A DNA stretch of 45,252 nt, taken from NCBI GenBank assembly GCA_016788785.1, contig JAEUSM010000015.1:1-45252 (forward strand), read 5' to 3'. The position numbers and the translations under genes are program-made. This DNA comes from Candidatus Kapaibacterium sp. (GTDB taxonomy: Bacteria > Bacteroidota > Ignavibacteria > Kapaibacteriales > JAEUSM01). The notes beneath the pieces were generated by a model. The model saw nothing but the letters and a program-made list of their open reading frames with translations, had not been told where the DNA came from and searched no databases. Shown piece after piece: positions 13,802 to 40,484 of the stretch (the first letter of the stretch is position 1; each line of letters starts with the position of its first letter).

Positions 13802-16800
13802 TTATGCTTTCGCAAATGCCTGATCAATGATTGCTCGCTGTTCAGCTTCATGTTTTTTGGAAGAACCTGTAGCAGGTGATGCAGATTCTTTTCTTCCAAC
13901 ATAAGAAAGTTTTTGTTGGATTTTCAAAAGCGATGAAACACGTGGTTGTATAAAGAACCAAGAACCTTGATTTTTCGGTTCTTCTTGCACGTGATATACT
14001 TCTGTGGCAGTTGAATAACGGTCAAGAATTGCTCTCATCATTTCCTCATGAAACGGATAAATTTGTTCAATTCTAACAATTGCTACATCTTCAGCATTCA
14101 ATCGTTTCTTCTCATTCAATAATTCATAATAGATTTTTCCACTACAAAGTAACACGCGAGTAATGTTCTCAGGATTTGTTACATTTGCATCATCAATTAT
14201 CTCTTGGAATGAACCTGTTGACAACTCAGAAAGAACGGAAATTGGCTGACGTAACAAACTTTTCGGAGACATAATAATAAGAGGCATATTGAATTTTCTT
14301 ACTACTTGCCTACGTAATGCGTGGAAATATTGAGCAGGTGTTGTCAAATTACAAACGGACATATTATCTTCTGCACAGTTTTGTAAGAAACGTTCTAAAC
14401 GAGCTGAAGAGTGTTCTGGACCTTGCCCTTCAAAACCATGTGGCAATAACAGGGTCAAATTCGAGGTTTGATTCCATTTAGCCTCAGAACTAGACAAGAA
14501 TTGGTCAATTATAATTTGTGCACCATTCACAAAATCACCAAATTGTGCTTCCCATATTGTCAAACCATTTGGTCGAACGACACTATACCCAAATTCGAAT
14601 CCCATCGCGGCATATTCTGACAATGGACTATCGTAAATGTAAAAATGTTCTTGATTTGGATCAATGCTATTTAGCAATACTATTTCGTTTTCTGTTTCAA
14701 AGTCAGTCAAAGTAGCATGACGATGAGAAAACGTACCACGTCGTACATCTTGACCACATAAACGAACTGGTGCTTTTTCTAAAAGCATAGAACCAATTGC
14801 CAATGCCTCGCCAATTGCCCAATCAATAGACGGTTTATCATTGTCTAAAATCGAAGCACGTTTTGTAATCAAGGTTTGCAATTTCGGATGAGGTTTGAAG
14901 CCATCTGGAATCGTTGAAATGACAGAAGTAATATGCTTCAATTGATGTTCAGCTACAGCAGTATTTACCTTTGCAAAAACGTCTTTATCTATAGGAGTTG
15001 GTTTTGCACTTGGAGTTGCACCATCTCGATTGAATGCATCATTCAAAGAAGCAGTAATTTTCGCATGGATAGCGTCAGCTTCTTCAGATGACAATACTTT
15101 TTCATCGATTAATTGCTCTTTATACAAAGAACGAGCAGGAGTATGGTTTTTGATTTTTTTGTACAACAATGGTTGTGTGTATGTAGGTTCGTCACCTTCA
15201 TTATGACCATATTTTCTATAACAATACATATCAATGATGACATCATCATTAAATTCGGTTCTATACTCATAAGCAAACAACGCTGCTTTACGAACTGCCT
15301 CTGGGTCATCTCCATTTACATGTAATATTGGTACTTGCAACATCTTTGCAACCCCTGAAGCATAAGTAGTCGAACGTGAGTCTATTGGGTTCGTCGTAAA
15401 TCCAATTTGGTTGTTGATGATGATATGAATGGTTCCACCAGTCGTGTACCCTTCCAATTCAGCAAAGTTCAAAGTCTCTGTTACAACTCCTTGACCAGCA
15501 AAAGCAGCATCGCCATGAATAAGGACTGGAAGTACTTTTGTAGATGTTTTGTCTCCAATTGAATCGGCTATACCACGTGCCATTCCTACAACCACTGGGT
15601 CAACTGCTTCTAAGTGTGATGGGTTTGGTGATAATGTAACAGGCAAGGTGAATGTATGTCTTGAAGTATAAATTCCATCTGCTCCTAAGTGGTATTTCAC
15701 ATCGCCAGAGCCTTGATAGCTGTTTGGATCCAGAACTCCTTCGAATTCATCGAAAATTTTTTCTAATGGTTTACCCATTATATTTGCCAATACATTCAAT
15801 CGTCCTCGATGAGCCATTCCAATGACGGTACTATGTGTTTTGTCTTCAGCGGCATTTTCCAAAAGACCATCTAAAAGCACCATCATAGATTCTCCACCTT
15901 CAATTGAAAATCGTTTATTCCCTAAAAAGCGAGTATGGAGAAAGTTTTCGAATGTTTCCGCTTTGGAAAGCATTGTGTAGATATGTTTTTTCTCTTCGTG
16001 AGAAAATTTCAATTTTTTGTAATCAACTTCTAATTTATTGATTATCCATTTTGTTTTTTCAGGGTCTTGATTGTGTGAAAACTCGATACCAATGGTACCA
16101 CAATAGGTATCCCACAATGTATCGGCAATTTCACGTAAGGTAAGATGTTGTTTACCTGCCAATCCACCAGTATCAAATTCGCGGTCTAAATCCCACAATG
16201 TAAATCCATAATACGATAGATTTAACTCGCTAAAGTAAAAAGATTGATACCCAAGTGGATTTATGTCTGCTGCCAAATGACCTCTGTCGCGATAATTCGC
16301 TATCATTTGAACTACTTTTCCTTCTTTTTCAATCGAATCCATTTCGTTCAATGGACCAAATGGATTAACTTGGTTATCCACAGACCACATTGAAGGTTCA
16401 AATGGAATATGTAATGTTGCAAAAATGATATCGTAAAATCTATCATTACCTAACATCATTTTATGCATGTTTGACAAAAATTCTCCAGATTCTGCACCTT
16501 GGATGATTCTATGGTCGTACGTGCTGGTCAACGTTACAACCTTCGATATTGCCATAGTTGACAATACTCCCGGTAGCACTCCATGAAATTCAGGTGGATA
16601 GTCTATCGAGCCAGATGCAACAATCAGACCTTGACCATTCATCAAACGAGGGATTGAAGACAAGGTACCAATTGTTCCCGGATTAGTAAGCGTTACTGTT
16701 GCACCACTCAGATCATCTGGAGTTAATTTATTGTTTCGTGCGGCATTAATAAGTTTATCATATTCAGCACAAAACTCAGCAAAATTCATTTTTTGTGCAT

Positions 16801-17449
16801 CTTTGATACTCGGTACCATTAGCATTCGAGTACCGTCTTTTCGCGTCATATCAACTGCTAAACCAAGATTGATAGAGCCTCGTTTGATTCGGTAATGTTT
16901 TCCATCTACTTGTGAATACGTATCATTCAACGATGGATATTTTTTGATTGCTTGTACAATTGCCCAACCAATAAGGTGAGTAAAACTAATTTTCTTTTTA
17001 CGTCGAGCAACTAAAAATTTATTGATAATTCTTCTATTTTCTTCTAAAACCTTCACAGGCATTGTACGAACACTAGTTGCAGTCGGAACTGTCAATGAAG
17101 TTTGCATATTTTCAGCAATTTTTCCTGAAAGATTCGACATTGCAACTGCCTCATCATTCGGTCCCAAATGTGGTAATCCAGCAACTGGTGCTATAGTCCC
17201 ATTAGAAGAGGCAGGAATTGGTTCTTCGATAACAGCTATTTTAAGTTCTGGAGCTTTTCCATTCGTTGTTGTCCCATTTACCGCTGGGGTTGCCTCAATT
17301 GTGCTTGTTTGAATAGGTGCTATTGGTGCAGTTTCTGGTGAAAATTGTTGCGTTTCAAAAAAAGCTCTCCATTCCAGTGGAACAGAATCTTTATCTCGCA
17401 AATACGAAAAATATAATTCGTCAACAAAGGCGCTGTTAGGCGTTATCAT
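13802..17449 (-). CDS. kgd: Fused 2-oxoglutarate dehydrogenase E2/E1 (Kgd/OdhA type)
   Basis: A 1215-residue protein joining two TCA-cycle activities. Residues 1-35 (NSAFVDELYFSYL) match the E1 (SucA) N-terminal helix. A Pro/Thr/Ala-rich linker spans 36-100. A dihydrolipoyl succinyltransferase catalytic domain spans about 110-345, with H313 in YDHRIIQG. The thiamine-diphosphate E1 part fills 365-1215, with AHRGR (546-550) and the TPP-binding GDA...NNQ motif (646-681). No lipoyl domain or E3-binding domain is present, so lipoyl groups must come in trans, as in actinobacterial OdhA/Kgd. The catalysed step is 2-oxoglutarate to succinyl-CoA. A TAAATTTG promoter-like box lies 35 nt upstream of the start. 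Confidence 0.93.
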   Translation of the reverse strand: MITPNSAFVDELYFSYLRDKDSVPLEWRAFFETQQFSPETAPIAPIQTSTIEATPAVNGTTTNGKAPELKIAVIEEPIPASSNGTIAPVAGLPHLGPNDEAVAMSNLSGKIAENMQTSLTVPTATSVRTMPVKVLEENRRIINKFLVARRKKKISFTHLIGWAIVQAIKKYPSLNDTYSQVDGKHYRIKRGSINLGLAVDMTRKDGTRMLMVPSIKDAQKMNFAEFCAEYDKLINAARNNKLTPDDLSGATVTLTNPGTIGTLSSIPRLMNGQGLIVASGSIDYPPEFHGVLPGVLSTMAISKVVTLTSTYDHRIIQGAESGEFLSNMHKMMLGNDRFYDIIFATLHIPFEPSMWSVDNQVNPFGPLNEMDSIEKEGKVVQMIANYRDRGHLAADINPLGYQSFYFSELNLSYYGFTLWDLDREFDTGGLAGKQHLTLREIADTLWDTYCGTIGIEFSHNQDPEKTKWIINKLEVDYKKLKFSHEEKKHIYTMLSKAETFENFLHTRFLGNKRFSIEGGESMMVLLDGLLENAAEDKTHSTVIGMAHRGRLNVLANIMGKPLEKIFDEFEGVLDPNSYQGSGDVKYHLGADGIYTSRHTFTLPVTLSPNPSHLEAVDPVVVGMARGIADSIGDKTSTKVLPVLIHGDAAFAGQGVVTETLNFAELEGYTTGGTIHIIINNQIGFTTNPIDSRSTTYASGVAKMLQVPILHVNGDDPEAVRKAALFAYEYRTEFNDDVIIDMYCYRKYGHNEGDEPTYTQPLLYKKIKNHTPARSLYKEQLIDEKVLSSEEADAIHAKITASLNDAFNRDGATPSAKPTPIDKDVFAKVNTAVAEHQLKHITSVISTIPDGFKPHPKLQTLITKRASILDNDKPSIDWAIGEALAIGSMLLEKAPVRLCGQDVRRGTFSHRHATLTDFETENEIVLLNSIDPNQEHFYIYDSPLSEYAAMGFEFGYSVVRPNGLTIWEAQFGDFVNGAQIIIDQFLSSSEAKWNQTSNLTLLLPHGFEGQGPEHSSARLERFLQNCAEDNMSVCNLTTPAQYFHALRRQVVRKFNMPLIIMSPKSLLRQPISVLSELSTGSFQEIIDDANVTNPENITRVLLCSGKIYYELLNEKKRLNAEDVAIVRIEQIYPFHEEMMRAILDRYSTATEVYHVQEEPKNQGSWFFIQPRVSSLLKIQQKLSYVGRKESASPATGSSKKHEAEQRAIIDQAFAKA

Positions 17450-24197: not shown

Positions 24198-25394
24198 TCA
24201 TTCAACTGTAACTTTTTCAACTTTTTTCTTTCTCATTGATTGAAATAGTACGGCTATCACACCCAACAACGCTAATTCTATTGCAGCTATTAAAGCTCTG
24301 TAAAGGAATGTATTGACTGTATTTATAGTGGGCAATTGTATTTTTGTAGTGAAAGGATTATTAGAATATCGAAAAACGGGATTAAGAAAATACGTTGTAA
24401 CTGAATCCACATATACTTCTGTTCGAATGTACGTATCGTTTTTTAAAAGCGGAATGGTTGCATGATTGGTATTAGAAAATACTTCTTTGACAATCCCATG
24501 TTGATGAATAAATCGAATAGAATCGACAGAAGTTTTCATCGAAACAGAAAGAGAGTCATTGTTTATAGAAACTGCTTCTAATTTGTTACCATTCTTTGCA
24601 TCAATTCCTCGAACGCCGTAGGCATTTCCTTTTTTGAGCGATGAATACACCGAAGAAGGTGATCGATCTTTTGCATAAATCATTGTCCAATATGCCCCAC
24701 ATTGTCCTTTTGCATCCAAATGTTTTGTATCATCATTAGAAACTATCATTGCACTTATTCCAGCACTCAAAGCCGAATCCCAATGTGGGAAAGAAGTTCT
24801 GTAATGATTGAGAACTTCCATCAAATCATAGTTTTTTAATTGGGAAAAATCAGATGCATCAAAACCATTGGAAAAAGATGGGTGATTGATAGTCAAAACA
24901 GAACATGTAGGAGCAATGTGATTGAGCATATACTGTTTATGATGAAGTGTTTGGAGAAATACAAAATCCAACCACACAATCGATGATGCCCCTAAGGGTT
25001 GATGATGTCTTTTTTTTACATTGTAACCATGTTCATACGTAGGAATATAAATACTAGATGTATCATGTTTTCCTGTAGTATCAATTTGGTGATAGTTAGA
25101 AATTGTGGGAATGTCATATCCTAAATGTTTAAATTGAGAATGAACTTCCTCAGGAGTATGATGTCCATTAGTAAGTTTTCCCCAAGCAAACGTGTGAGAA
25201 TGAAAATTTGCCTTCAATAATATCGAATCTTTTGCTAAATAGGGATTAAACCATGAAGTACCTGAGAAGGTAGAATTTGGACGAAAATCATACATTTCTG
25301 CGTGGAAATAGGGCAAAATTGCTAGAAAAAGCAAAAAAATTACGGAAATTGCGAAAATTTTTGTTGGATAAATTAATTTTTTCACTATTTTCAT
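24198..25394 (-). CDS. Membrane-anchored PHP-domain phosphoesterase-like protein
   Basis: A 398-residue protein with an N-terminal membrane segment (about 13-30) and a C-terminal one (about 365-385). Between them, about 58-250, lies a PHP-type metal site: H65-S-H67 in ANFHSHT, H102 in SNYHQ, E121, H130-H131, H171-P, E193 and D221-D222...H225. The order matches PHP phosphoesterases, but the usual second motif (TDHN) is SNYHQ here. The domain would face the periplasm. The last third (260-360) is beta-rich. GTG at 25418 would add eight residues; the ATG at 25392-25394 gives a more normal signal anchor. The substrate is unknown. Confidence 0.72.
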   Translation of the reverse strand: MKIVKKLIYPTKIFAISVIFLLFLAILPYFHAEMYDFRPNSTFSGTSWFNPYLAKDSILLKANFHSHTFAWGKLTNGHHTPEEVHSQFKHLGYDIPTISNYHQIDTTGKHDTSSIYIPTYEHGYNVKKRHHQPLGASSIVWLDFVFLQTLHHKQYMLNHIAPTCSVLTINHPSFSNGFDASDFSQLKNYDLMEVLNHYRTSFPHWDSALSAGISAMIVSNDDTKHLDAKGQCGAYWTMIYAKDRSPSSVYSSLKKGNAYGVRGIDAKNGNKLEAVSINNDSLSVSMKTSVDSIRFIHQHGIVKEVFSNTNHATIPLLKNDTYIRTEVYVDSVTTYFLNPVFRYSNNPFTTKIQLPTINTVNTFLYRALIAAIELALLGVIAVLFQSMRKKKVEKVTVE

Positions 25395-25513
25395 ACGTAT
25401 TCGAAAAGTTTTATGCACAATTTGTATGACTAAACGAATCGAATACGATAATGTTTCAAGAGTATTTTTCGAACAATAATATATATTTTTTCTGTTTATT
25501 CCATGGATGTTTT

Positions 25514-26661: not shown

Positions 26662-29600
26662 ATGAAAATTTACATTACTTCTTTGGTTTTTGTCACACTG
26701 TTTTTCGTTTCTTTTGAGCAAGGAACTTCACAAGTTTTTTCCTTGCAACAGTTGAATAGTTTGGCAAATCAATTTTTGTTACAAGAACTTCAACAACAAC
26801 GGGAAATAGACTCGTTAGCTTCACTTTATAACATACCTTTGAGAAAACAGTTTTCAGATGGTAGAATAGTTGAATTGCAAGGTTTTGAGAATGGAATCCC
26901 AACCTATTATACAACCACAAGTAATGTAGTATCTGCTGCAACTATATCATCCAATAAAGTTCACCCCGGTGGAGGTGCTGGACTTTCATTAAATGGAAAT
27001 GGTGTTTTATTAGGTATGTGGGATGGTGGTAGAACCCGTCTTACTCATCAGGAATTTAATGGACGAGTTTCTCAAATGGATGCAGCAATTGATTTGTCAG
27101 ATCACGCAACTCACGTTGCTGGTACAATGGTTGCTACAGGTACGAGTGCAAGTGCAAAAGGTATGTCATTTGATGCAAGCTTAAATGCCTACGATTGGAA
27201 TAGTGATAATTCTGAAATGACAACTGCTGCTGCAAATGGATTGTTAGTTTCCAATCACTCTTATGGAACCATAACCGGTTGGATTTATAATTTCCGTGGA
27301 GATGACAAATGGGTATGGTTTGGTGATACTGCAGCATCATTAATAGAAGACAGAAACTTTGGGGCATATAATTCGCAAGCTCGTTCTTGGGATGTTATCG
27401 CTCGAAATGCACCTAATTATTTAATCGTCAAATCTGCTGGAAATGATCGTGGTGAAGGTCCTGGTGCTCAACCAGTGGATCATTGGATTTTTAAAAATTC
27501 ACAATGGGTTTTGACAAATACACAAAGAAATAGAGATGGTAATTCGTTAGGATATGATTGTATAACCACTTCTGGAAATGCTAAAAACATTCTTACAGTC
27601 GGTGCAGTTGATGATATTCCAGGTGGATATTCCCAACCTACTGATGTCGTTATGAGTTCTTTCTCTGGGTATGGTCCTACTGATGATGGAAGAATAAAAC
27701 CAGATATTGTAGCAAATGGAATCGGACTGTTTTCCCCTACGGCTTCGACAAACTCCTCCTACCAGTCGTATTCCGGTACTTCAATGTCTGCACCAAGTAT
27801 TTCTGGTTCTTTAGGTTTGTTGTTACAACATCAAAAAAACTTACACCCTACCAAAATCTTACTTTCATCTACGCTGAAAGCGATAGTATTGCATACAGCA
27901 GATGAAGCTGGTTCTGCAAATGGACCTGACTACAGATTTGGTTGGGGATTGATGAATACGAAAAAAGCTACAGATTTGATGACACTCAATTCTACACGAG
28001 GAGCAAATGGTTTTGATATTCAAGAACTTACGTTAAATAACAATGATTCAGTTGTTATTCCAATTCAATCGAATGGTAATCAACCACTCCGTGCTACCAT
28101 TGTCTGGAATGATGTACAAGGTACCACTTCTACAAATACTCTAAATCCTACAACTCTACGTTTAGTGAATGATGTAGATTTGAGAATCCGCAGTGCTGCC
28201 AATCAAACGTTTAATCCATGGGTATTAGACCCTGCTAATCCAGCTAATGCTGCTACAACTGGCGATAACATTCGTGATAATGTCGAACAAGTACATATTC
28301 AATCCCCAGTAGCCAGTCAATATACACTTGTTATTCGACACAAAGGAAGTATAAATGGTGGTTCTCAAGTTGTGTCTTTGGCACTTTCTGGAGCAGAACC
28401 TGCATCTACACCGATAACACCTTCTTTGCTTCTACCTTCTGTAAACGAAAACTCTGCAGCACCGCCTATAGTACATAAATGGAGAGCAATTAATGGGGCA
28501 ACGTACACTTTCCAAGTAGCAACAGACACGTTGTTTAACAATATTGTTGCTCAGGGTATTCAAACAGATACTTCATTTACTTTTTCCAATGCATTGCCAA
28601 ATACAAAATATTTTTGGCGTGTTAATGCAATTATTGGTCCTGATCCAACAGCTTGGAATACACGTTCTTATCAAACATTATCTACAGCTTCAACTAATTG
28701 GTTACTCAAACCAGATTCTCTTTCGACTGTAACTACATTGAGACCAAACTTTAGCTGGAAAAAGCAAACCGAAAATGGATATAGATTATTGGTTTCGACT
28801 AATTCAAACTTATCAAATCCTATTGTTAATACTTCTCAAGGTGATACCAATCGTACAATTGTTGAATACTTAAACTTTAATACGCAATATTATTGGAATG
28901 CTTCAGGAATTTCTATGGGACCATCTTATAATCCTTCCATAACGTGGTCTTTTGTAACCTATAATCCGATTGTACAACCTTTACTGCCATCTAATGGATT
29001 TGTTGCATCAACAATGCCACCAATTATGCAATGGAATAGTGCTGAGAATATTAATCAATATAATATTCAAGTTTCGACAAATCCTGCATTTACTTCTAAT
29101 GTAGTCATTAACGAAAATGCTATCAGTGATACAACATTCCCAACTTCTTCATTACTCAAAAATAAGTTGTATCATTGGAGAATCCAACCCCAATTTGGGC
29201 CAAAAAGTGGAGCATGGTCAACTGCTTGGACATTTTCAGTGCCTGATAATAACTTACGAAAAATCTTTCCTGATTCTTCATCTGCAATTGGAAATACAAA
29301 CGTAACATTACGATGGAGAAAATTAGAAGGCACGAATAAATATACGGTCACATTAGCAAGTAATCCTCAGTTTATTACCCCAATAGTAAGTAATTCTAAT
29401 GTCACTGATACAACATTAGCAGTTCCAAACCTACAAACAAATACGCCGTATTATTGGACTGTAAGTGCTACGACTGATTTGGGTGAAGTTCAATCATCGA
29501 CATGGCAATTTATCATTGTTTCTAAACCACAATTGGTTGCTCCCGATGATAAAAGTACGAATTCAGACAAGTTAATTACCTTCCGTTGGAGAAAACTTGG

Positions 29601-30660
29601 TGGATTGAATGCTTCATCATTTTTACGAGTATCTGATAAAGTAAATTTTTCTACAACCTTAGAAGAAGTTGATGGACTGTTGGATACTACCTATGTTTTT
29701 GACGGCTCTACAGCTCTTAAACAAAATACTACTTATTATTGGCAGGTGCGACAGTTGATTGGTCAAGATACTACGTTGTGGTCAGATCCATGGTCGTTTA
29801 CAACAAAAGCACTTCCAATGATAACACAACAATACCCAGATTCTAATGCGATAGGTGTTCCAATTGATACAACATTTTACTGGAATAGTGCAACAGATGT
29901 AGACGGATATACAGTTCGAGTGTCAACAGTTCCAACCTTTGCTTCAACAGTTTTAGAACGCTCACCGTTAATAGGCGAAGCACAAACTTCAGTAACTGGG
30001 TTAGAAAATAATAAAAAATATTATTGGCAAACAAGAACAAGAAAAGAAGGTGAATTTTCTGCTTGGTCAAATGCTTGGCCATTTTTAACGATACTTTCTA
30101 AACCAAATTTGTTATTACCAGCTAATGAGGCAAATATCCCACAAACGGAAATTACCTTTACATGGCAAGCTGTCGCTGGAGCAGAAAGTTACGATTTGCG
30201 AGTTTCAACTGACTCTACATTTGCTACGACAGTCGTTAGTGAAGAAGGATTAGTCCCAACAACCTATGAATATAAAGCATTAGTTGCTAATACAAAATAT
30301 TTCTGGCAAGTAGAATCAAAATCAACAAAAAATGCGGGTCAGTGGTCAGCTATACGAAACTTTACTACCCAACCTATTAGTTCAGTTGGAGCTACGGAAC
30401 ATATTGGCGTTGAAATTATACCAAATCCTGTGAGCAATATCGCTCGAATCCGAATAAGCACACAAAACAATGAAATTATACGTAGCATTACAATTCGAAA
30501 TATGATAGGAGAAACAGTCGCAACGGTAGACGTTCCTCATACTGTTCAAAACTATCTTGAGTTTGACTACATTGCTACATCGGTTGCAAATGGAATATAT
30601 ATGCTCGATATCTCTACCACAAAACGAAAATCCAGCTATCCTCTCGTGATAGTACGCTAA
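26662..30660 (+). CDS. T9SS-secreted subtilisin-like protease with FN3-like repeats
   Basis: A 1332-residue S8 family protease. It has a signal peptide (1-23), a short propeptide region, and a subtilase domain at about 105-435 with D121 (GMWDGG), H148 (DHATHVAGT) and S374 (GTSMSAPS). A jelly-roll-like domain follows (about 440-575). Seven fibronectin-III-like units of about 90-95 residues fill 585-1240, each with a W or Y strand, a Y-x-x-x-V-S core and a YYW-x-V strand. The C-terminal 85 residues (IIPNPVSNIARI ... YPLVIVR) are a type A type IX secretion sorting domain. It is probably exported and surface-attached or released. A strong terminator follows. Confidence 0.92.
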   Translation: MKIYITSLVFVTLFFVSFEQGTSQVFSLQQLNSLANQFLLQELQQQREIDSLASLYNIPLRKQFSDGRIVELQGFENGIPTYYTTTSNVVSAATISSNKVHPGGGAGLSLNGNGVLLGMWDGGRTRLTHQEFNGRVSQMDAAIDLSDHATHVAGTMVATGTSASAKGMSFDASLNAYDWNSDNSEMTTAAANGLLVSNHSYGTITGWIYNFRGDDKWVWFGDTAASLIEDRNFGAYNSQARSWDVIARNAPNYLIVKSAGNDRGEGPGAQPVDHWIFKNSQWVLTNTQRNRDGNSLGYDCITTSGNAKNILTVGAVDDIPGGYSQPTDVVMSSFSGYGPTDDGRIKPDIVANGIGLFSPTASTNSSYQSYSGTSMSAPSISGSLGLLLQHQKNLHPTKILLSSTLKAIVLHTADEAGSANGPDYRFGWGLMNTKKATDLMTLNSTRGANGFDIQELTLNNNDSVVIPIQSNGNQPLRATIVWNDVQGTTSTNTLNPTTLRLVNDVDLRIRSAANQTFNPWVLDPANPANAATTGDNIRDNVEQVHIQSPVASQYTLVIRHKGSINGGSQVVSLALSGAEPASTPITPSLLLPSVNENSAAPPIVHKWRAINGATYTFQVATDTLFNNIVAQGIQTDTSFTFSNALPNTKYFWRVNAIIGPDPTAWNTRSYQTLSTASTNWLLKPDSLSTVTTLRPNFSWKKQTENGYRLLVSTNSNLSNPIVNTSQGDTNRTIVEYLNFNTQYYWNASGISMGPSYNPSITWSFVTYNPIVQPLLPSNGFVASTMPPIMQWNSAENINQYNIQVSTNPAFTSNVVINENAISDTTFPTSSLLKNKLYHWRIQPQFGPKSGAWSTAWTFSVPDNNLRKIFPDSSSAIGNTNVTLRWRKLEGTNKYTVTLASNPQFITPIVSNSNVTDTTLAVPNLQTNTPYYWTVSATTDLGEVQSSTWQFIIVSKPQLVAPDDKSTNSDKLITFRWRKLGGLNASSFLRVSDKVNFSTTLEEVDGLLDTTYVFDGSTALKQNTTYYWQVRQLIGQDTTLWSDPWSFTTKALPMITQQYPDSNAIGVPIDTTFYWNSATDVDGYTVRVSTVPTFASTVLERSPLIGEAQTSVTGLENNKKYYWQTRTRKEGEFSAWSNAWPFLTILSKPNLLLPANEANIPQTEITFTWQAVAGAESYDLRVSTDSTFATTVVSEEGLVPTTYEYKALVANTKYFWQVESKSTKNAGQWSAIRNFTTQPISSVGATEHIGVEIIPNPVSNIARIRISTQNNEIIRSITIRNMIGETVATVDVPHTVQNYLEFDYIATSVANGIYMLDISTTKRKSSYPLVIVR

Positions 30661-33850: not shown

Positions 33851-34363
33851 TTATGATTTTTTTGACGGTGTACACGCATCACAATCGCCGCAATCAGTGC
33901 AGTCAACTGGGCAACATCCATCACATTCACAATCCAAAGAAGCTGATTCTTTTACAGCTTTTTTAACAGATTTTTTTGAAGGTGTACATGCAACACAATC
34001 GCCGCAATCAGTGCAGTCAACTGGGCAACATCCATCACATTCGCAATCCAAAGAAGCTGATTCTTTTACAGCTTTTTTAACAGATTTTTTTACTTTTGTA
34101 TTTTTCGCTTTTTTACCACAATCACATTTGTCACAAGATGCACCTGGGCAAGCATCACCGCATTCGCAAGATTTTGCTGCTTTTTTTACTTTTGTTTTGC
34201 TACCGCAATCACATTTAGTACAAGAAGCACCTGGACATGCGTCACCACATTTACATTTTACAACAACATGAGTAGGAGTTGCAACTGATGTAGAAGTTGT
34301 TGCAACAAAAGAAAATACCACGAAAAGTGCAGTTAAAACACTGCCTAAAATTGAATTCAACAT
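33851..34363 (-). CDS. Exported metallothionein-like Cys-repeat protein
   Basis: A 170-residue protein with a signal peptide (about 1-28) and 28 cysteines. Two copies of CxCGDACPGASCxKCDCG (about 37-54 and 67-84) are joined by Lys-rich linkers. Two 38-residue units follow, each with a Lys/Ala/Ser segment and an 8-Cys core, DCECDGCCPVDCTDCGDC plus AC. The CxC, CC and CxxC spacing suggests thiolate metal clusters as in metallothioneins, but an exported location is unusual for those. No known family was recognised. The ATG at 34361-34363 is chosen because it starts the signal peptide; an upstream ATG would add ten residues. The upstream neighbour encodes another Cys-rich exported protein. Confidence 0.8.
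   Translation of the reverse strand: MLNSILGSVLTALFVVFSFVATTSTSVATPTHVVVKCKCGDACPGASCTKCDCGSKTKVKKAAKSCECGDACPGASCDKCDCGKKAKNTKVKKSVKKAVKESASLDCECDGCCPVDCTDCGDCVACTPSKKSVKKAVKESASLDCECDGCCPVDCTDCGDCDACTPSKKS
33855..34082. repeat. 114-bp in-frame tandem duplication
   Basis: Two adjacent 114-bp units (33855-33968 and 33969-34082) differ at only four positions by eye. Each encodes one 38-residue Cys-rich unit. A fragment of a third unit boundary (GATTTTTTT at 34083) follows. The near identity at synonymous positions points to a recent duplication or ongoing gene conversion. Confidence 0.9.
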
Positions 34364-34403
34364 TGAAATTCTCCAAATATAAAATAAATACATAAAATTA
34401 TTT

Positions 34404-34437: not shown

Positions 34438-34854
34438 TTATGCTACCGACTGACTATTTGGAGGGTGAAAGGGTTTAGAGATAAGTAAAAGTGTAAAAAA
34501 GGAATTCAAATCACCGGGATGCAAATTTGTTTTGATACCAACTTCTTTGAAAGTTACTACGATTGGTCCCACTAAGTTTTTCGTAATGGTACAACATTGA
34601 CAAATATGATCTTCGTGATGTGATTTTTTATGTTCTTTTTCTTCTTCGTCGGAATGAGATGTCTGGCAGCAATCAGATTCTTTTTTTGTTGTTTCCTCTT
34701 TCTTTGGAGTACAACAAGAAGTTATTTCATTGTCGGCACAAGGATTTTCAACATCACAAAGTTGCTCAGCTTTGAGTCCAAAAGACCCAAGCAAAAACAA
34801 CACTGCAACAGCGCAATGAGTACAAACAGTTAAATAATGACGAATCGATTTCAT
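34438..34854 (-). CDS. Exported Cys/His-rich protein, putative metal binder
   Basis: A 138-residue protein with an N-terminal hydrophobic segment (about 8-28). The mature part has nine cysteines, including three CC pairs (C47-C48, C62-C63, C87-C88), plus C33, C39 and C85. Between C63 and C85 lies an acidic His-rich stretch (H67, H75, H79, H80, H83 among Asp/Glu/Lys). This composition suggests binding of soft or transition metals. The C-terminal 45 residues include a hydrophobic segment (LNSFFTLLLISKPF). No known family was recognised. The gene starts 27 nt downstream of the phytochrome-like kinase gene and 74 nt upstream of the Cys-repeat gene, all on one strand. Confidence 0.75.
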   Translation of the reverse strand: MKSIRHYLTVCTHCAVAVLFLLGSFGLKAEQLCDVENPCADNEITSCCTPKKEETTKKESDCCQTSHSDEEEKEHKKSHHEDHICQCCTITKNLVGPIVVTFKEVGIKTNLHPGDLNSFFTLLLISKPFHPPNSQSVA

Positions 34855-34881: not shown

Positions 34882-37764
34882 TTATTGCACAACTTCAGGA
34901 GAAGATTGTAACATTTTCTTTACAATTGACTGTAAATCATCTCGTGTAAATGGTTTTGCTAAATAATCTGAAAACCCATGAGAGAGAAATTTTTCTCTAT
35001 CACCTTCCATTGCATACGCAGTTATAGCAACACAAGGTACTTCAGAATACACAGGATTCTGACGAATTCGATGGAAGGTCTCAACGCCATCCATTCCCGA
35101 ATCTCCAAGATTAATATCCATCAACACTAATTTATAAAATTTTTCTTGTGCAAGATGTATACCCTCTTGACCATTTTCTGCGTGATCAACAACACAAATG
35201 TTTTTAAGTAACAATTTTGTTAAAATTGCATTTTCTTTGTTATCTTCTACTAACAATATCTGCGGTAGTTGCTTTTGAGAGCCATTCGTTTCAATTTTTT
35301 TGTATTCTTTCGGTATAGTAACGGTTGGAACTTCCACTGGATTTGGAACAAAAGAATGTGTTGGTATTGGACGATTCTGATCTTTTGAATTTGGAACATA
35401 CAGTGGGAACATAACACGAATGGTTGTTCCGATATTTTTTTCGGTCTCCACATGGAGTTTTCCGCCCATTAACTCAACATAACGTTTTGCCATAGAAAGT
35501 CCCAAACCAGCTCCTTCAAATTTTCGAGCATTTCCAGTACTTTCCTGAACAAATGGCGTGAATAACTTTGGAATAAAGGATTTATCCATACCGACGCCGG
35601 TATCAGCAACACTAACATACGACCATTCTTTTTCGTTATCCAACATTGCTGTACCAATACGAATGGTAATTCCACCTTGTTTGGTGAATTTAATCGCATT
35701 TCCAATGATATTTACTAAGATGTTTTCTAACAGTTTGCCGTCCAAAAGTGCTAAAGAATGTTCGTTGCTAAATTGCTCTTGGATATAGAGATTTTTTTCT
35801 TCAGCAAGATGTCGTAATGATGATAAAACTGAATTAGAACATTCTTGTAATGAACAAACGGCAATTTGTAGCTCCATTTTCTGTGATTCAGAGCGAGACA
35901 TTTCCAAAAGACTATTGAGCAAGGTCATAAGTCTTGTTCCAGATTTTTGAATCATTGAAGAAAATGACCGCATATCATCGGATTCAGCTTGTTTGTATAT
36001 TATCTGCGAAAATCCTAAAATACTATTGAGAGGTGTACGAATTTCATGCGACATATTAGCCAAAAAATTCGATTTTAGTCGATTCATTTCCTCAGCTAAT
36101 TCTTTCGAGTGACGCAATGCACGTTCGATTTTCTTGCGTTCTGCAATTTCCACCTTCAATTGTTTGTTTGCTCGAGTAATTTCGTCAGTACGCTCCTCAA
36201 CTCGTTGTTCCAATTCACCCTTAATTTGTTCTAATTCTAAAGAGAATGTCTTTGCAACTTGTGTTGTAATCGAATGTAATATTGACAACCTATTGTGAAG
36301 TGATTGAGCCAATTCAACTTCAATATGGGAAAATAAAGTATTGACAGGAATGGAAATCTTTTCTAAAGTATATGTTTTATGAACAATTTCATTGTGTGTT
36401 GGTGATATCCGCTCTACAAATCCATCTTCAATAAGAGAAACTGTTTTATTTTTGACATTTTGTACCCAAATGATAAATGTTGGATTTTCATGAACAATTG
36501 AACAAGCTAAAACAGCTTGAATAGGAGAATGTTCTAATGAATATTCATTAAATGTTTCTTTATAATTTGCAGTTGTAAAGACAGAATGCTCTTGTAATGA
36601 TGAAGCACATAATTGAATCAACTCATTTGTTTGCGACTCAGATAGTTCTGTATCCTGTAAAAATACAGAACCATTGGAAACTATAATTACCCCATCTGAA
36701 GAAATACAATCTGTGAGAAGTTTTTGAGAGCGAACTAAACCGTCAAAAAGCGATGGGTTTTGAATGACATTTTTAAACACATCTTCAATTACCTGATGTC
36801 CATATAAAAGAGTGGTGCGGTTGTTGCTTTCAATAATGTGTTTATAACGTTGTGCAAATGCTTTACAAAGTGATAAACAATCGTTAATTTGATGGATATG
36901 TAATCGTTCTTCTTGATAATGTACAGCCTCTACATAACCAAAATGAATACCATTATAGACCAAAGGTATTCGTAAAATAGAAGTTGCGTCAGTAATTTGA
37001 AAATGTTTTTTCAAATCAGAAGAAAACGAATGTAAAATCGAATAACAACAGTCAAATTTTTCTAATCCTTCATTAGGAAAGAGCTGAATTGTTGGAATAG
37101 CTGTATTAAGAACGAAGGTATAATCGTACAAATAAGGAACAGAATCTTCATTGGTAAATAAGTGTGACGGAAGATGAAGATTTGAATACGAATCTAACCA
37201 TGGTTTTTTACTTTCCGCAACGACTGAATAGAAATTGTCAGAACTTGGAACATAAACTGAAACCCGGTCGAAATTAGTGATTTCTCGAATCGCTATGGTT
37301 AAAGTGTCCAAACAATTTTCTGTTGTCTCACATTGTAAATTTTCTTGTAAAAACGTAATTACTTTTGATTGAAGCTCAACATTATTTCCTGTCGTCGTTA
37401 AGGTTGGAACAATATCCACCAATATAAATTCAACGCTTGGTTTGTGAATGGTGGCAGTAATTGGAAATTCTTGACCTGTAGGTTTTTTCCAAATAAGCTC
37501 AAAGGTTGTATGTGGAAACGAAGCAATTTCACTCCATCCCAAAAATTTATTTGCAATTGATTCTGGGAAGAATGACAATGCAGAAATACCCACTAATTGT
37601 TGTGGATTTATGCCTAAAATTTCTTCAGAATTTTCGCTGGTATGAGAGATAATCAGCGAATCGGAGTCGACGACTAATACGACGCCAAAGGCTTGTAAAT
37701 TTGTTGAGCAGATGGTACGATTCGATGAGGAAACCCAGTTCGGATTGTTCAAATATTGTTCCAT
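34882..37764 (-). CDS. Phytochrome-architecture hybrid histidine kinase, chromophore site degenerate
   Basis: A 960-residue protein. A PAS_2-like domain (about 19-122, FGVVLVVDSDSLIISHTSEN), a GAF domain (about 135-300, FDRVSVY ... VVAESKKPWLDSYSNLHLPS) and a PHY-like domain (about 330-500) precede a coiled coil. HisKA follows with H573 (NMSHEIRTPLNS), then HATPase_c, then a receiver with D883 (LMDINLGDSG) and KPFTRDDL. The order is that of bacteriophytochromes. Bilin-binding features look lost: no Cys at the usual N-terminal place, DIP replaced by HLF, the SPxH/CH site replaced by SSDL, and no PRxSF tongue. It probably senses something other than light through bilin. The ATG at 37764 is preferred to a TTG at 37812. 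Confidence 0.85.
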   Translation of the reverse strand: MEQYLNNPNWVSSSNRTICSTNLQAFGVVLVVDSDSLIISHTSENSEEILGINPQQLVGISALSFFPESIANKFLGWSEIASFPHTTFELIWKKPTGQEFPITATIHKPSVEFILVDIVPTLTTTGNNVELQSKVITFLQENLQCETTENCLDTLTIAIREITNFDRVSVYVPSSDNFYSVVAESKKPWLDSYSNLHLPSHLFTNEDSVPYLYDYTFVLNTAIPTIQLFPNEGLEKFDCCYSILHSFSSDLKKHFQITDATSILRIPLVYNGIHFGYVEAVHYQEERLHIHQINDCLSLCKAFAQRYKHIIESNNRTTLLYGHQVIEDVFKNVIQNPSLFDGLVRSQKLLTDCISSDGVIIVSNGSVFLQDTELSESQTNELIQLCASSLQEHSVFTTANYKETFNEYSLEHSPIQAVLACSIVHENPTFIIWVQNVKNKTVSLIEDGFVERISPTHNEIVHKTYTLEKISIPVNTLFSHIEVELAQSLHNRLSILHSITTQVAKTFSLELEQIKGELEQRVEERTDEITRANKQLKVEIAERKKIERALRHSKELAEEMNRLKSNFLANMSHEIRTPLNSILGFSQIIYKQAESDDMRSFSSMIQKSGTRLMTLLNSLLEMSRSESQKMELQIAVCSLQECSNSVLSSLRHLAEEKNLYIQEQFSNEHSLALLDGKLLENILVNIIGNAIKFTKQGGITIRIGTAMLDNEKEWSYVSVADTGVGMDKSFIPKLFTPFVQESTGNARKFEGAGLGLSMAKRYVELMGGKLHVETEKNIGTTIRVMFPLYVPNSKDQNRPIPTHSFVPNPVEVPTVTIPKEYKKIETNGSQKQLPQILLVEDNKENAILTKLLLKNICVVDHAENGQEGIHLAQEKFYKLVLMDINLGDSGMDGVETFHRIRQNPVYSEVPCVAITAYAMEGDREKFLSHGFSDYLAKPFTRDDLQSIVKKMLQSSPEVVQ

Positions 37765-37818
37765 TTTGTTGGTACGTTGGTCAAAAATCCAATATGGGAT
37801 TGTAAAATACAACTTTTT

Positions 37819-39762
37819 TTATGAAATTGCAATTTTTTTTACATTTTCTAACCATTGTTGTACCGTTGCATCAGATGGCATTCGAAGATCTCCTCGAGGT
37901 GATACTGCTACGGAGCCGATTTTTGGGGAGTCAGGCAAACATGATCGTTTGAATTGTGATGAAAAAAATCTTTGATAGAAAATTTTCAACCAATGAAGAA
38001 TTTCTTGATGTGAATATGAATTTTTAAAGGCAATTGTTGCTAAGTAAAAAATCACTTCCGGTTTCTTTTTTTGACGTAACATATAGTATAAAAAGAAGTC
38101 GTGAAGTATATAGGGACCAACTACATCCTCAGTTTTTTGTGCTATAGTACCCTCTTCAGTTGGTGGCAATAATTCAGGTGAAATTGGAGTATCTGCAATA
38201 TCATTCAATATACTTTGTATTTGTTTATTTTGAGTTAAAGCGAACGTTTGAATGTAATATCGCACTAATGATTTGGGAACCCCAGCATTGATGCCATACA
38301 TTGACATATGATCTGCATTATACGTACACCAACCTAAGGCAAGTTCAGACAAATCACCAGTTCCTAGAACAATTCCACCAATGGAATTTGCGAAATCCAT
38401 CAAAACCTGTGTTCGTTCACGAGCTTGAGCATTTTCATACGTTATAGAATAATCATCAAGTGGATGCTGGATGTCTTCCAAATGTTGAGTTACTGCTTTG
38501 TGGATTGGAATTTCTTTGTATGTGACACCATACGCTTCAGCAAGTAACGCTGCATTGTTTTTGGTTCGTGAGGTCGTTCCAAATCCGGGCATTGAGATAG
38601 CAGTAATTTTGGAAAGTGGAATTTGTTGTTTTGTGAATGCATCTACAGCAACCAATAACGCTAATGTTGAATCCAAACCACCACTCAGTCCAATGACAAT
38701 AGGAGCATTGTTTATATGACGCATCCGAGTTTGTAATGCTGTTGATTGTATTTGTAAAATTTCGCCACAAATTTCTTTCCTACTGTTTTCAGAGCTAGGT
38801 ACGAAAGGAGTTTGTGAAATTTGTCGTTCTAAAGTACATTTGGTATTATAATAACCAGAATTATACACAGAGTGAATAATATACGAACCTGAAATTGGAT
38901 TTTGTGCATAAGAAGTATTCAAAAGACGTTCAGTTCGAATTTTGTCAATGTCAATATCAGCATACAGAATCTGAGATGTAAATTCAAATCGTCTACTTTC
39001 AGCTAAAAGAATACCATTTTCAGCTATTAGAGAATGACCAGAAAAGACAAGGTCAGTAGAAGATTCATTGGGACCTGAAGAAGCGTATGCGTACGCACAA
39101 ATTGCTCGAGCTGACTGAGAGGTTACTAATGAACGACGGTAGTCTGCTTTCCCTAACGTTTCGTTGGATGCTGATAAATTTACAATAACTTCTGCTCCAG
39201 CTAAACATGCTGAAAGTGATGGAGGTATCACAGACCATAAATCTTCGCAAAGTTCTACGCCAAACGTACAACAATTTGGAGTGATATTGAATAGTTGGTT
39301 CACACCAATTGGAACATCCTGTTTGCAAATGGTTACAACTGCATTTGTCGGTAGAATATTCGCAGAAGAAAACCAGCGTTGTTCATAAAACTCTGCGGTA
39401 TTGGGTATAAATGTTTTCGGAATAATTCCGTGAATCTGCCCGTTGGAAATTACGACGCCACAATTGAACAAGTGAGATTTGTAACGAATTGGAGCACCAA
39501 TAACAACAGCTATATCGAGAGTATGCGGTAAGATGCTTTCGATAGCAGATTCAACTGAATCAAGGAGTAATGAATCGTAAAACAAATCCGCAATAGTATA
39601 TCCAGTTATACACAATTCAGGGAAAGTCAATAAAGAAATTCCTTGTTCAGAGGCAATGGAAATTTGTTTGATTATCTCTTGTGTGTTGAAATCACAATCA
39701 GCCAAGCGTAGTTCTGGGGTGCAAACGCCTATACGAAAAAAACCTGCATCCCGAAAGTTCAT
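37819..39762 (-). CDS. nadE: Glutamine-dependent NAD+ synthase
   Basis: A 647-residue two-domain enzyme. The N-terminal nitrilase-type glutaminase has the catalytic triad E49 (FPELCITGY), K116 (IPKTFIP) and C172 (GVELCEDLW). The C-terminal ATP-pyrophosphatase domain has the P-loop S361-G-G-L-D-S366. It amidates nicotinic acid adenine dinucleotide to NAD+, using ammonia channelled from glutamine. The ATG at 39760-39762 (MNFRDAGFFRIGV) is the start. The frame continues upstream to another ATG, but that would run into the tRNA gene at 39812-39885. The stop is 54 nt before the phytochrome-like kinase start. Confidence 0.95.
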   Translation of the reverse strand: MNFRDAGFFRIGVCTPELRLADCDFNTQEIIKQISIASEQGISLLTFPELCITGYTIADLFYDSLLLDSVESAIESILPHTLDIAVVIGAPIRYKSHLFNCGVVISNGQIHGIIPKTFIPNTAEFYEQRWFSSANILPTNAVVTICKQDVPIGVNQLFNITPNCCTFGVELCEDLWSVIPPSLSACLAGAEVIVNLSASNETLGKADYRRSLVTSQSARAICAYAYASSGPNESSTDLVFSGHSLIAENGILLAESRRFEFTSQILYADIDIDKIRTERLLNTSYAQNPISGSYIIHSVYNSGYYNTKCTLERQISQTPFVPSSENSRKEICGEILQIQSTALQTRMRHINNAPIVIGLSGGLDSTLALLVAVDAFTKQQIPLSKITAISMPGFGTTSRTKNNAALLAEAYGVTYKEIPIHKAVTQHLEDIQHPLDDYSITYENAQARERTQVLMDFANSIGGIVLGTGDLSELALGWCTYNADHMSMYGINAGVPKSLVRYYIQTFALTQNKQIQSILNDIADTPISPELLPPTEEGTIAQKTEDVVGPYILHDFFLYYMLRQKKKPEVIFYLATIAFKNSYSHQEILHWLKIFYQRFFSSQFKRSCLPDSPKIGSVAVSPRGDLRMPSDATVQQWLENVKKIAIS

Positions 39763-39811
39763 AACCACCCTTTGCAGAGTAAAAAAGGAATAGTAACAGA
39801 AGTGAGAAGAG

Positions 39812-39885
39812 TACCAGGAGAGGGACTTGAACCCCCGACCCATGGATTATGATTCCATTGCTCTAACCGGCTGAGCTACCCTGGC
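39812..39885 (-). tRNA. tRNA-Met (CAT)
   Basis: The minus strand folds as a full cloverleaf. The acceptor stem pairs GCCAGGG with TCCTGGT (terminal G-T pairs) plus discriminator A. The D arm is GCTC...GAGC, the anticodon stem ATGGA/TCCAT with loop ATCATAA (anticodon CAT), and the T arm GGGGG-TTCAAGT-CCCTC. CCA is not encoded. The anticodon stem lacks the three G-C pairs of initiator tRNA, so it is elongator Met or, less likely, the lysidine-modified tRNA-Ile. It lies 49 nt upstream of nadE. Confidence 0.93.
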
Positions 39886-39959: not shown

Positions 39960-40484
39960 TTAGACAGTCACGAGGTTTAGCGGATTTTCGGCAGTTATTG
40001 GTAGTTCTGCATTGTCAACGAATGAATCTTGCAAGATATTTGCCCAAGTTTCTAAATACAGAATTACATCTTCTCGTTTACGATATTGAAAATTCTTTTT
40101 TCTTTCAAGGGGAATTCTTGCTAAAATTTTAGGATGAGATAGTTTTTCTAAATGATACAAATCATCTAAAGTAAAACCTCTTTCAAGGATACTTTGCATG
40201 ATATGTTCTACTGTCAACCCAGTCATCGAACAAACGTCTATACTGTCTCTATAAAACTCCTCAGCTTCAACAACAGTGGAAAATTCTCTGACATGGTCTT
40301 GCCATTCACCATATCGATCTATTGCAAGAGCATGAATTTCTGCAGATGATTTTTTCGTTACTGTTTGTGCCAAATGCCCACAATTGCAAGAACCTTGATG
40401 ACACCAATTGTATGTTGCGCCATCTGATAGTCGTTGTGCTGTTTCTCGTAAAATTGTAATTGTTTCTACTGTTGCTACTGCCAT
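39960..40484 (-). CDS. Conserved Bacteroidota protein with WCHxGSCNCG motif
   Basis: A 174-residue, soluble, mainly helical protein. The N-terminal half carries W27-C-H-Q-G-S-C33-N-C35-G-H-L-A-Q, followed by a KSSAEIHALAIDRYGEW helix. The C-terminal half has FTLDDLYHLEKLSHPKILARIP and EDVILYLETWANIL. From memory, proteins with a W-x-H-x-G-S-C-N-C-G segment and this order are common in Bacteroidota and uncharacterised. The clustered Cys/His could bind a metal or act in redox. No signal peptide is seen. It is the last gene before the tRNA, and a terminator lies between it and the DUF151 gene upstream. Confidence 0.75.
   Translation of the reverse strand: MAVATVETITILRETAQRLSDGATYNWCHQGSCNCGHLAQTVTKKSSAEIHALAIDRYGEWQDHVREFSTVVEAEEFYRDSIDVCSMTGLTVEHIMQSILERGFTLDDLYHLEKLSHPKILARIPLERKKNFQYRKREDVILYLETWANILQDSFVDNAELPITAENPLNLVTV

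Follow-up and report, generated by a model that had tools for sequence, protein, structure and literature searches.

A minus-strand gene (34882..37764) within the window—the whole stretch of 45,252 nucleotides analysed—encodes a 960-aa phytochrome-like hybrid histidine kinase, recognized by its open reading frame and by Pfam and phmmer matches, that has kept the phytochrome fold and the signalling motifs and has lost nearly all residues anchoring the chromophore. The protein is probably a soluble hybrid histidine kinase of bacteriophytochrome descent, or one built on a shared sensor scaffold, that no longer acts as a bilin photoreceptor; it would carry no bilin and would signal independently of light. 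Phytochromes are usually regarded as obligate bilin proteins. If the proposed reading is true, the kinase would help to distinguish the signalling role of the scaffold from the role of the chromophore and would constitute one more of the very few phytochromes with a changed input.

The reading frame is intact, running from an ATG at 37764 to a stop codon that ends at 34882; an alternative TTG start at 37812 would add 16 residues. Its domain order is PAS_2-GAF-PHY-HisKA-HATPase_c-Response_reg, all coordinates being on the minus strand. PAS_2 (residues 22–118, 37411..37701; PF08446, E 9.4e-9) scores above the cut-off, and the GAF domain with its replaced bilin anchors (residues 149–288, 36901..37320), whose Pfam match is weak alone (E 0.014), is also supported by phmmer and fold matches to phytochromes. 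The PHY domain (residues 325–442, 36439..36792; Pfam E 1.2e-5) lies just under the cut-off of 27 bits in the protein search (25.2 bits) and over it in a profile search of the genome (28.4 bits), in which the kinase locus is the single match. Among solved structures, the best sequence matches are the cyanobacterial phytochromes FiDCB (phmmer, 5.1e-12, residues 23–442) and Cph1 (2.6e-11, residues 23–437), both of which carry bilin-binding residues that are absent in the present kinase. Profiles, phmmer, and fold comparison place residues 20–500 in the PAS-GAF-PHY module that a preliminary description of this DNA had recognized by eye, and a generic PAS/GAF kinase devoid of PHY was not what the searches returned. 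The transmitter consists of HisKA (residues 564–627, 35884..36075; E 6.8e-17) and HATPase_c (residues 675–788, 35401..35742; E 3e-25), followed by a receiver (Response_reg, residues 836–948, 34921..35259; E 1.8e-22). With these three domains, their motifs intact, and both phospho-acceptors, H573 and D883, in place and correctly numbered in the preliminary description, the protein is a hybrid histidine kinase.

An AlphaFold2 model of residues 1–520 reached a mean pLDDT of 84.3 and a pTM of 0.79. Foldseek returned PsBphP as its top match (E 2.6e-33), and VIA-align 2 superposed it on two DrBphP structures: 461 residues of the photosensory module 4q0j align with an rmsd of 3.4 (Z 34.0), and 295 residues of PAS-GAF 2o9c with one of 2.2 (Z 33.4). 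This agreement in fold is not independent of sequence homology, since canonical phytochromes were contained in the input alignment of the model. The overlay on DrBphP proposed at the outset matched a phytochrome fold. Confidence is low (pLDDT below 50) at the N-terminus (residues 1–17) and in the PHY tongue region (residues 446–474, 36343..36429), in which model and alignment show neither WxG nor PRxSF. As a control, a canonical Hymenobacter protein (L079) was predicted with the same sequence set: its tongue blocks reached pLDDT 57–73 as opposed to 37–47 in blocks 441–470 of the kinase, and its DIP block reached 86 as opposed to 60 in block 201–210 of the kinase.

The pocket was examined in an alignment of 112 homologue rows, representing 109 distinct canonical proteins, with positions given in what we take to be DrBphP numbering; the mutant names D207A, H260A, Y263F, and H290T in structure titles agree with it. 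By column alignment, L202-F203-T204 (37153..37161) replaces the Asp-Ile-Pro motif D207-I208-P209, S248-S249-D250-L251 (37012..37023) replaces SPxH, and V281 (36922..36924) replaces His290. Residue by residue, Phe/Tyr203, Asp207, Ile208, and Pro209 have become L198, L202, F203, and T204; the propionate arginines Arg222 and Arg254 have become F217 and H245; and His260, Tyr263, Ser272, Ser274, and His290 have become L251, H254, I263, R265, and V281. Asp207 and His260 are the pyrrole-water residues. Asp207, Ile208, Arg222, and Tyr263 are invariant in 109/109 homologues, and all four are changed in the kinase, while Tyr176 (Y171), Tyr216 (Y211), and Ser257 (S248) are kept. The PRxSF tongue motif, the partner of Asp207 in phytochromes, is absent, ISPTHNE standing instead. 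Across the columns conserved at 95% or more, the kinase retains 11/31 (Q24, G27, D166, R167, Y171, V181, E184, P199, D238, G276, and G358), compared with a lowest value of 84% and a mean of 98% among the homologues. This column pattern fits a sensor selected for its fold rather than for bilin.

Much of this had been foreseen in the preliminary description, which reported that SPxH reads SSDL, that PRxSF is missing, and that the canonical PAS cysteine is gone; the alignment agrees on each count. In 104/112 rows that cysteine precedes the Q of QPHG by 12 residues; the kinase has none at this position. The reported loss of DIP likewise stands; its letters do not, since the column-true replacement is LFT rather than HLF, with H201 falling on the preceding Ser/Thr. 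The argument that FG in place of HG marks a loss was rejected, for Phe is common in canonical phytochromes: the His position of PHG is occupied by H in 54, F in 34, and Y in 16 of the 112 canonical rows. The changes at Tyr/Phe203 (to L), Arg222 (to F), Arg254 (to H), Tyr263 (to H), and His290 (to V) had not been listed before. No alignment restores equivalents of Asp207, His260, or His290 in the pocket, and from these anchor losses we infer, in line with the earlier suggestion, that bilin binding has been lost.

Cysteines are unusually frequent in the sensor. Residues 24–445 contain nine, a number reached or exceeded in 1/109 homologues (canonical mean 4.0) and to be compared with 2.8 expected from the window genes (Poisson P 0.002). 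This doubled count hints at redox or metals as a cue. New histidines occupy the Arg254 and Tyr263 positions (H245 and H254), and H201 lies beside the former Asp207; three histidines among the 20 lost conserved columns represent a weak enrichment (P about 0.04).

Bilin loss in a phytochrome kinase is already known, so that the present protein represents a new, extreme variant: RpBphP4 of Rhodopseudomonas palustris is called a phytochrome turned redox sensor in a title cited in PMC6879726. Both are PAS-GAF-PHY histidine kinases that have retained signalling without a bilin chromophore, its absence being our inference for the present one. The present protein differs in having lost the tongue motif and almost every pocket anchor, in carrying a fused receiver, and in sharing about 20% identity with any canonical phytochrome. 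Hymenobacter bacteriophytochrome kinases share the order of sensor domains and give the best sequence scores; however, kinases of this type keep Cys-EPIHIPG, DIP, SPIH, CHH, and PRxSF and often adjoin a heme oxygenase, neither of which holds for the present kinase. No orthologue with the same substitutions emerged from 149 relatives, 395 genomes of the phylum, 391 genomes of the class (searched with the PHY profile), or GTDB contigs (searched with query peptides), so the homologue survey initially recommended yielded no sequence sharing them; the patterns used to collect homologues favour canonical motifs, and this set therefore cannot exclude degenerate relatives elsewhere. Plasmid relatives are 20–24% identical to the kinase. 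Going by kinship labels, the source organism probably belongs to the phylum that includes Hymenobacter and Flavobacterium-type relatives, and to a different class from theirs. Text searches of the literature retrieved no survey of degenerate phytochromes.

Retention of both the signalling helices and the PAS-GAF-PHY fold makes it most likely that the sensor still communicates with the transmitter. The signal would travel along the PHY helix and a coiled coil (about 480–560) to H573, and from there to the intramolecular receiver at D883 and into an onward phosphorelay. The bilin pocket appears dismantled, its polar anchors having mostly given way to the apolar residues L198, L202, F203, F217, L251, I263, and V281. 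With the PRxSF tongue gone as well, the switch is probably thrown by a cue other than light. Redox state or thiol/metal chemistry would be the most likely one, judging from the doubled cysteine count and by analogy with RpBphP4, which Vuillet et al. reportedly described in 2007 as a phytochrome turned redox sensor; some other ligand may also provide the input. According to PMC8292422, the DrBphP apoprotein shows Pr-like activity and is light-blind.

A pocket that still binds biliverdin—non-covalently or via C19 in a rearranged form—would make the kinase an atypical photoreceptor, supplied by the heme oxygenase of the genome. The search for bphO suggested in the preliminary description uncovered one heme oxygenase in the 2.97-Mb genome, a BphO-type enzyme of 204 aa with the proximal His and GSTLGG (L002:1480-2094, corresponding to G000:C18:115590-116156, minus strand), and biliverdin may therefore be made; the genome yielded no ferredoxin bilin reductase. 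The enzyme scores best against phytochrome-adjacent Paenibacillus and Hymenobacter enzymes and against those of family f7, a resemblance that, like its retention, speaks for biliverdin binding. It is, however, an orphan, lying between other genes on contig C18 and unlinked to the kinase or to any phytochrome, whereas many canonical loci have both genes adjacent. Nine others among the 149 relatives possess a heme oxygenase; a phytochrome sensor, with the N-terminal Cys and Asp207 kept and the heme oxygenase close by, was found in 2/9 (G009 and G036) and went undetected in 7/9, where the enzyme probably has other uses. Members of family f7 of this order commonly have a heme oxygenase with no phytochrome detected, and the presence of the enzyme is therefore no proof that the kinase binds biliverdin. 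Of four GAF matches in the genome, the three inspected by eye look like ordinary GAF/PAS proteins rather than bilin-type ones. C19 itself, in a T-x-C context, lies five residues before the Q equivalent to that of QPHG, the EPIHIPG segment being missing, and MAFFT pairs it with the canonical cysteine only given a deletion of these seven residues. The kept equivalents of Tyr176, Tyr216, and Ser257 would also suit a functional pocket, and DrBphP variants D207A, H260A, Y263F, and H290T have, according to structure titles, been crystallized as phytochromes, so single anchor losses need not abolish the holoprotein. In the kinase, however, Arg222, Arg254, Asp207, His260, Tyr263, and His290 are all gone, and a biliverdin-binding photoreceptor seems very unlikely.

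It is possible, if less than probable, that a former light receptor has become a chemosensor kinase, its pocket now remodelled to accept another ligand such as heme, a metal ion, or a small apolar molecule. H245, H254, and H201, the apolar replacements elsewhere in the pocket, and the adjacent Cys/His-rich small proteins would suit such a conversion; on the other hand, the histidine enrichment is weak, no orthologue shows that the new residues are conserved, and the small neighbours match no metal family. That the kinase instead stems from an early-diverging lineage without any bilin-binding ancestor would accord with a tree that sets it apart from every canonical sequence, its own branch being extremely long (about six changes per column). 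This placement was rejected as a long-branch artefact; midpoint rooting on such a branch says nothing about polarity, so that the tree does not polarize loss against original absence, and the orphan BphO-type heme oxygenase together with the PHY domain suggests a phytochrome past, which renders a bilin-free origin rather unlikely. Extreme divergence and the lack of a detected orthologue might also be expected of a decaying, functionless gene. An open frame of 960 codons in which every kinase and receiver motif is preserved, and the retention of fold-level residues while pocket residues were lost, make decay highly improbable, and a signalling kinase that no longer serves as a bilin photoreceptor remains the preferred explanation.

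Upstream of the kinase lies a glutamine-dependent NAD synthetase (37819..39843, minus strand; Pfam NAD_synthase and CN_hydrolase), separated from it by 6 bp if the TTG start is used or by 54 bp with the ATG start. Downstream follow a 138-aa Cys/His-rich protein (34438..34854, minus) after 27 bp, a 180-aa Cys-repeat protein (33851-34393, minus), and DNA polymerase I. Both small reading frames have signal-like N-termini and no Pfam or NCBIfam match, and the 138-aa protein has one weak relative among the 149 genomes. Cotranscription of the kinase with its neighbours is possible, as is a role of the 138-aa protein as operon partner. One of these two small Cys/His-rich proteins (33851-34393, 34438-34854) contains tandem CECDGCCPVDCTDCGDC units. 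Elsewhere in the window, two minus-strand reading frames, 24198-25418 (406 aa) and 39960-40484 (174 aa), have no Pfam match. The window also encodes a 2-oxoglutarate dehydrogenase of the OdhA/Kgd type (13802-17449, minus), in which an E2 acyltransferase domain is fused to E1, and a subtilase of 1332 aa (26662-30660, plus) that carries a type IX secretion tail in addition to fibronectin-like domains.
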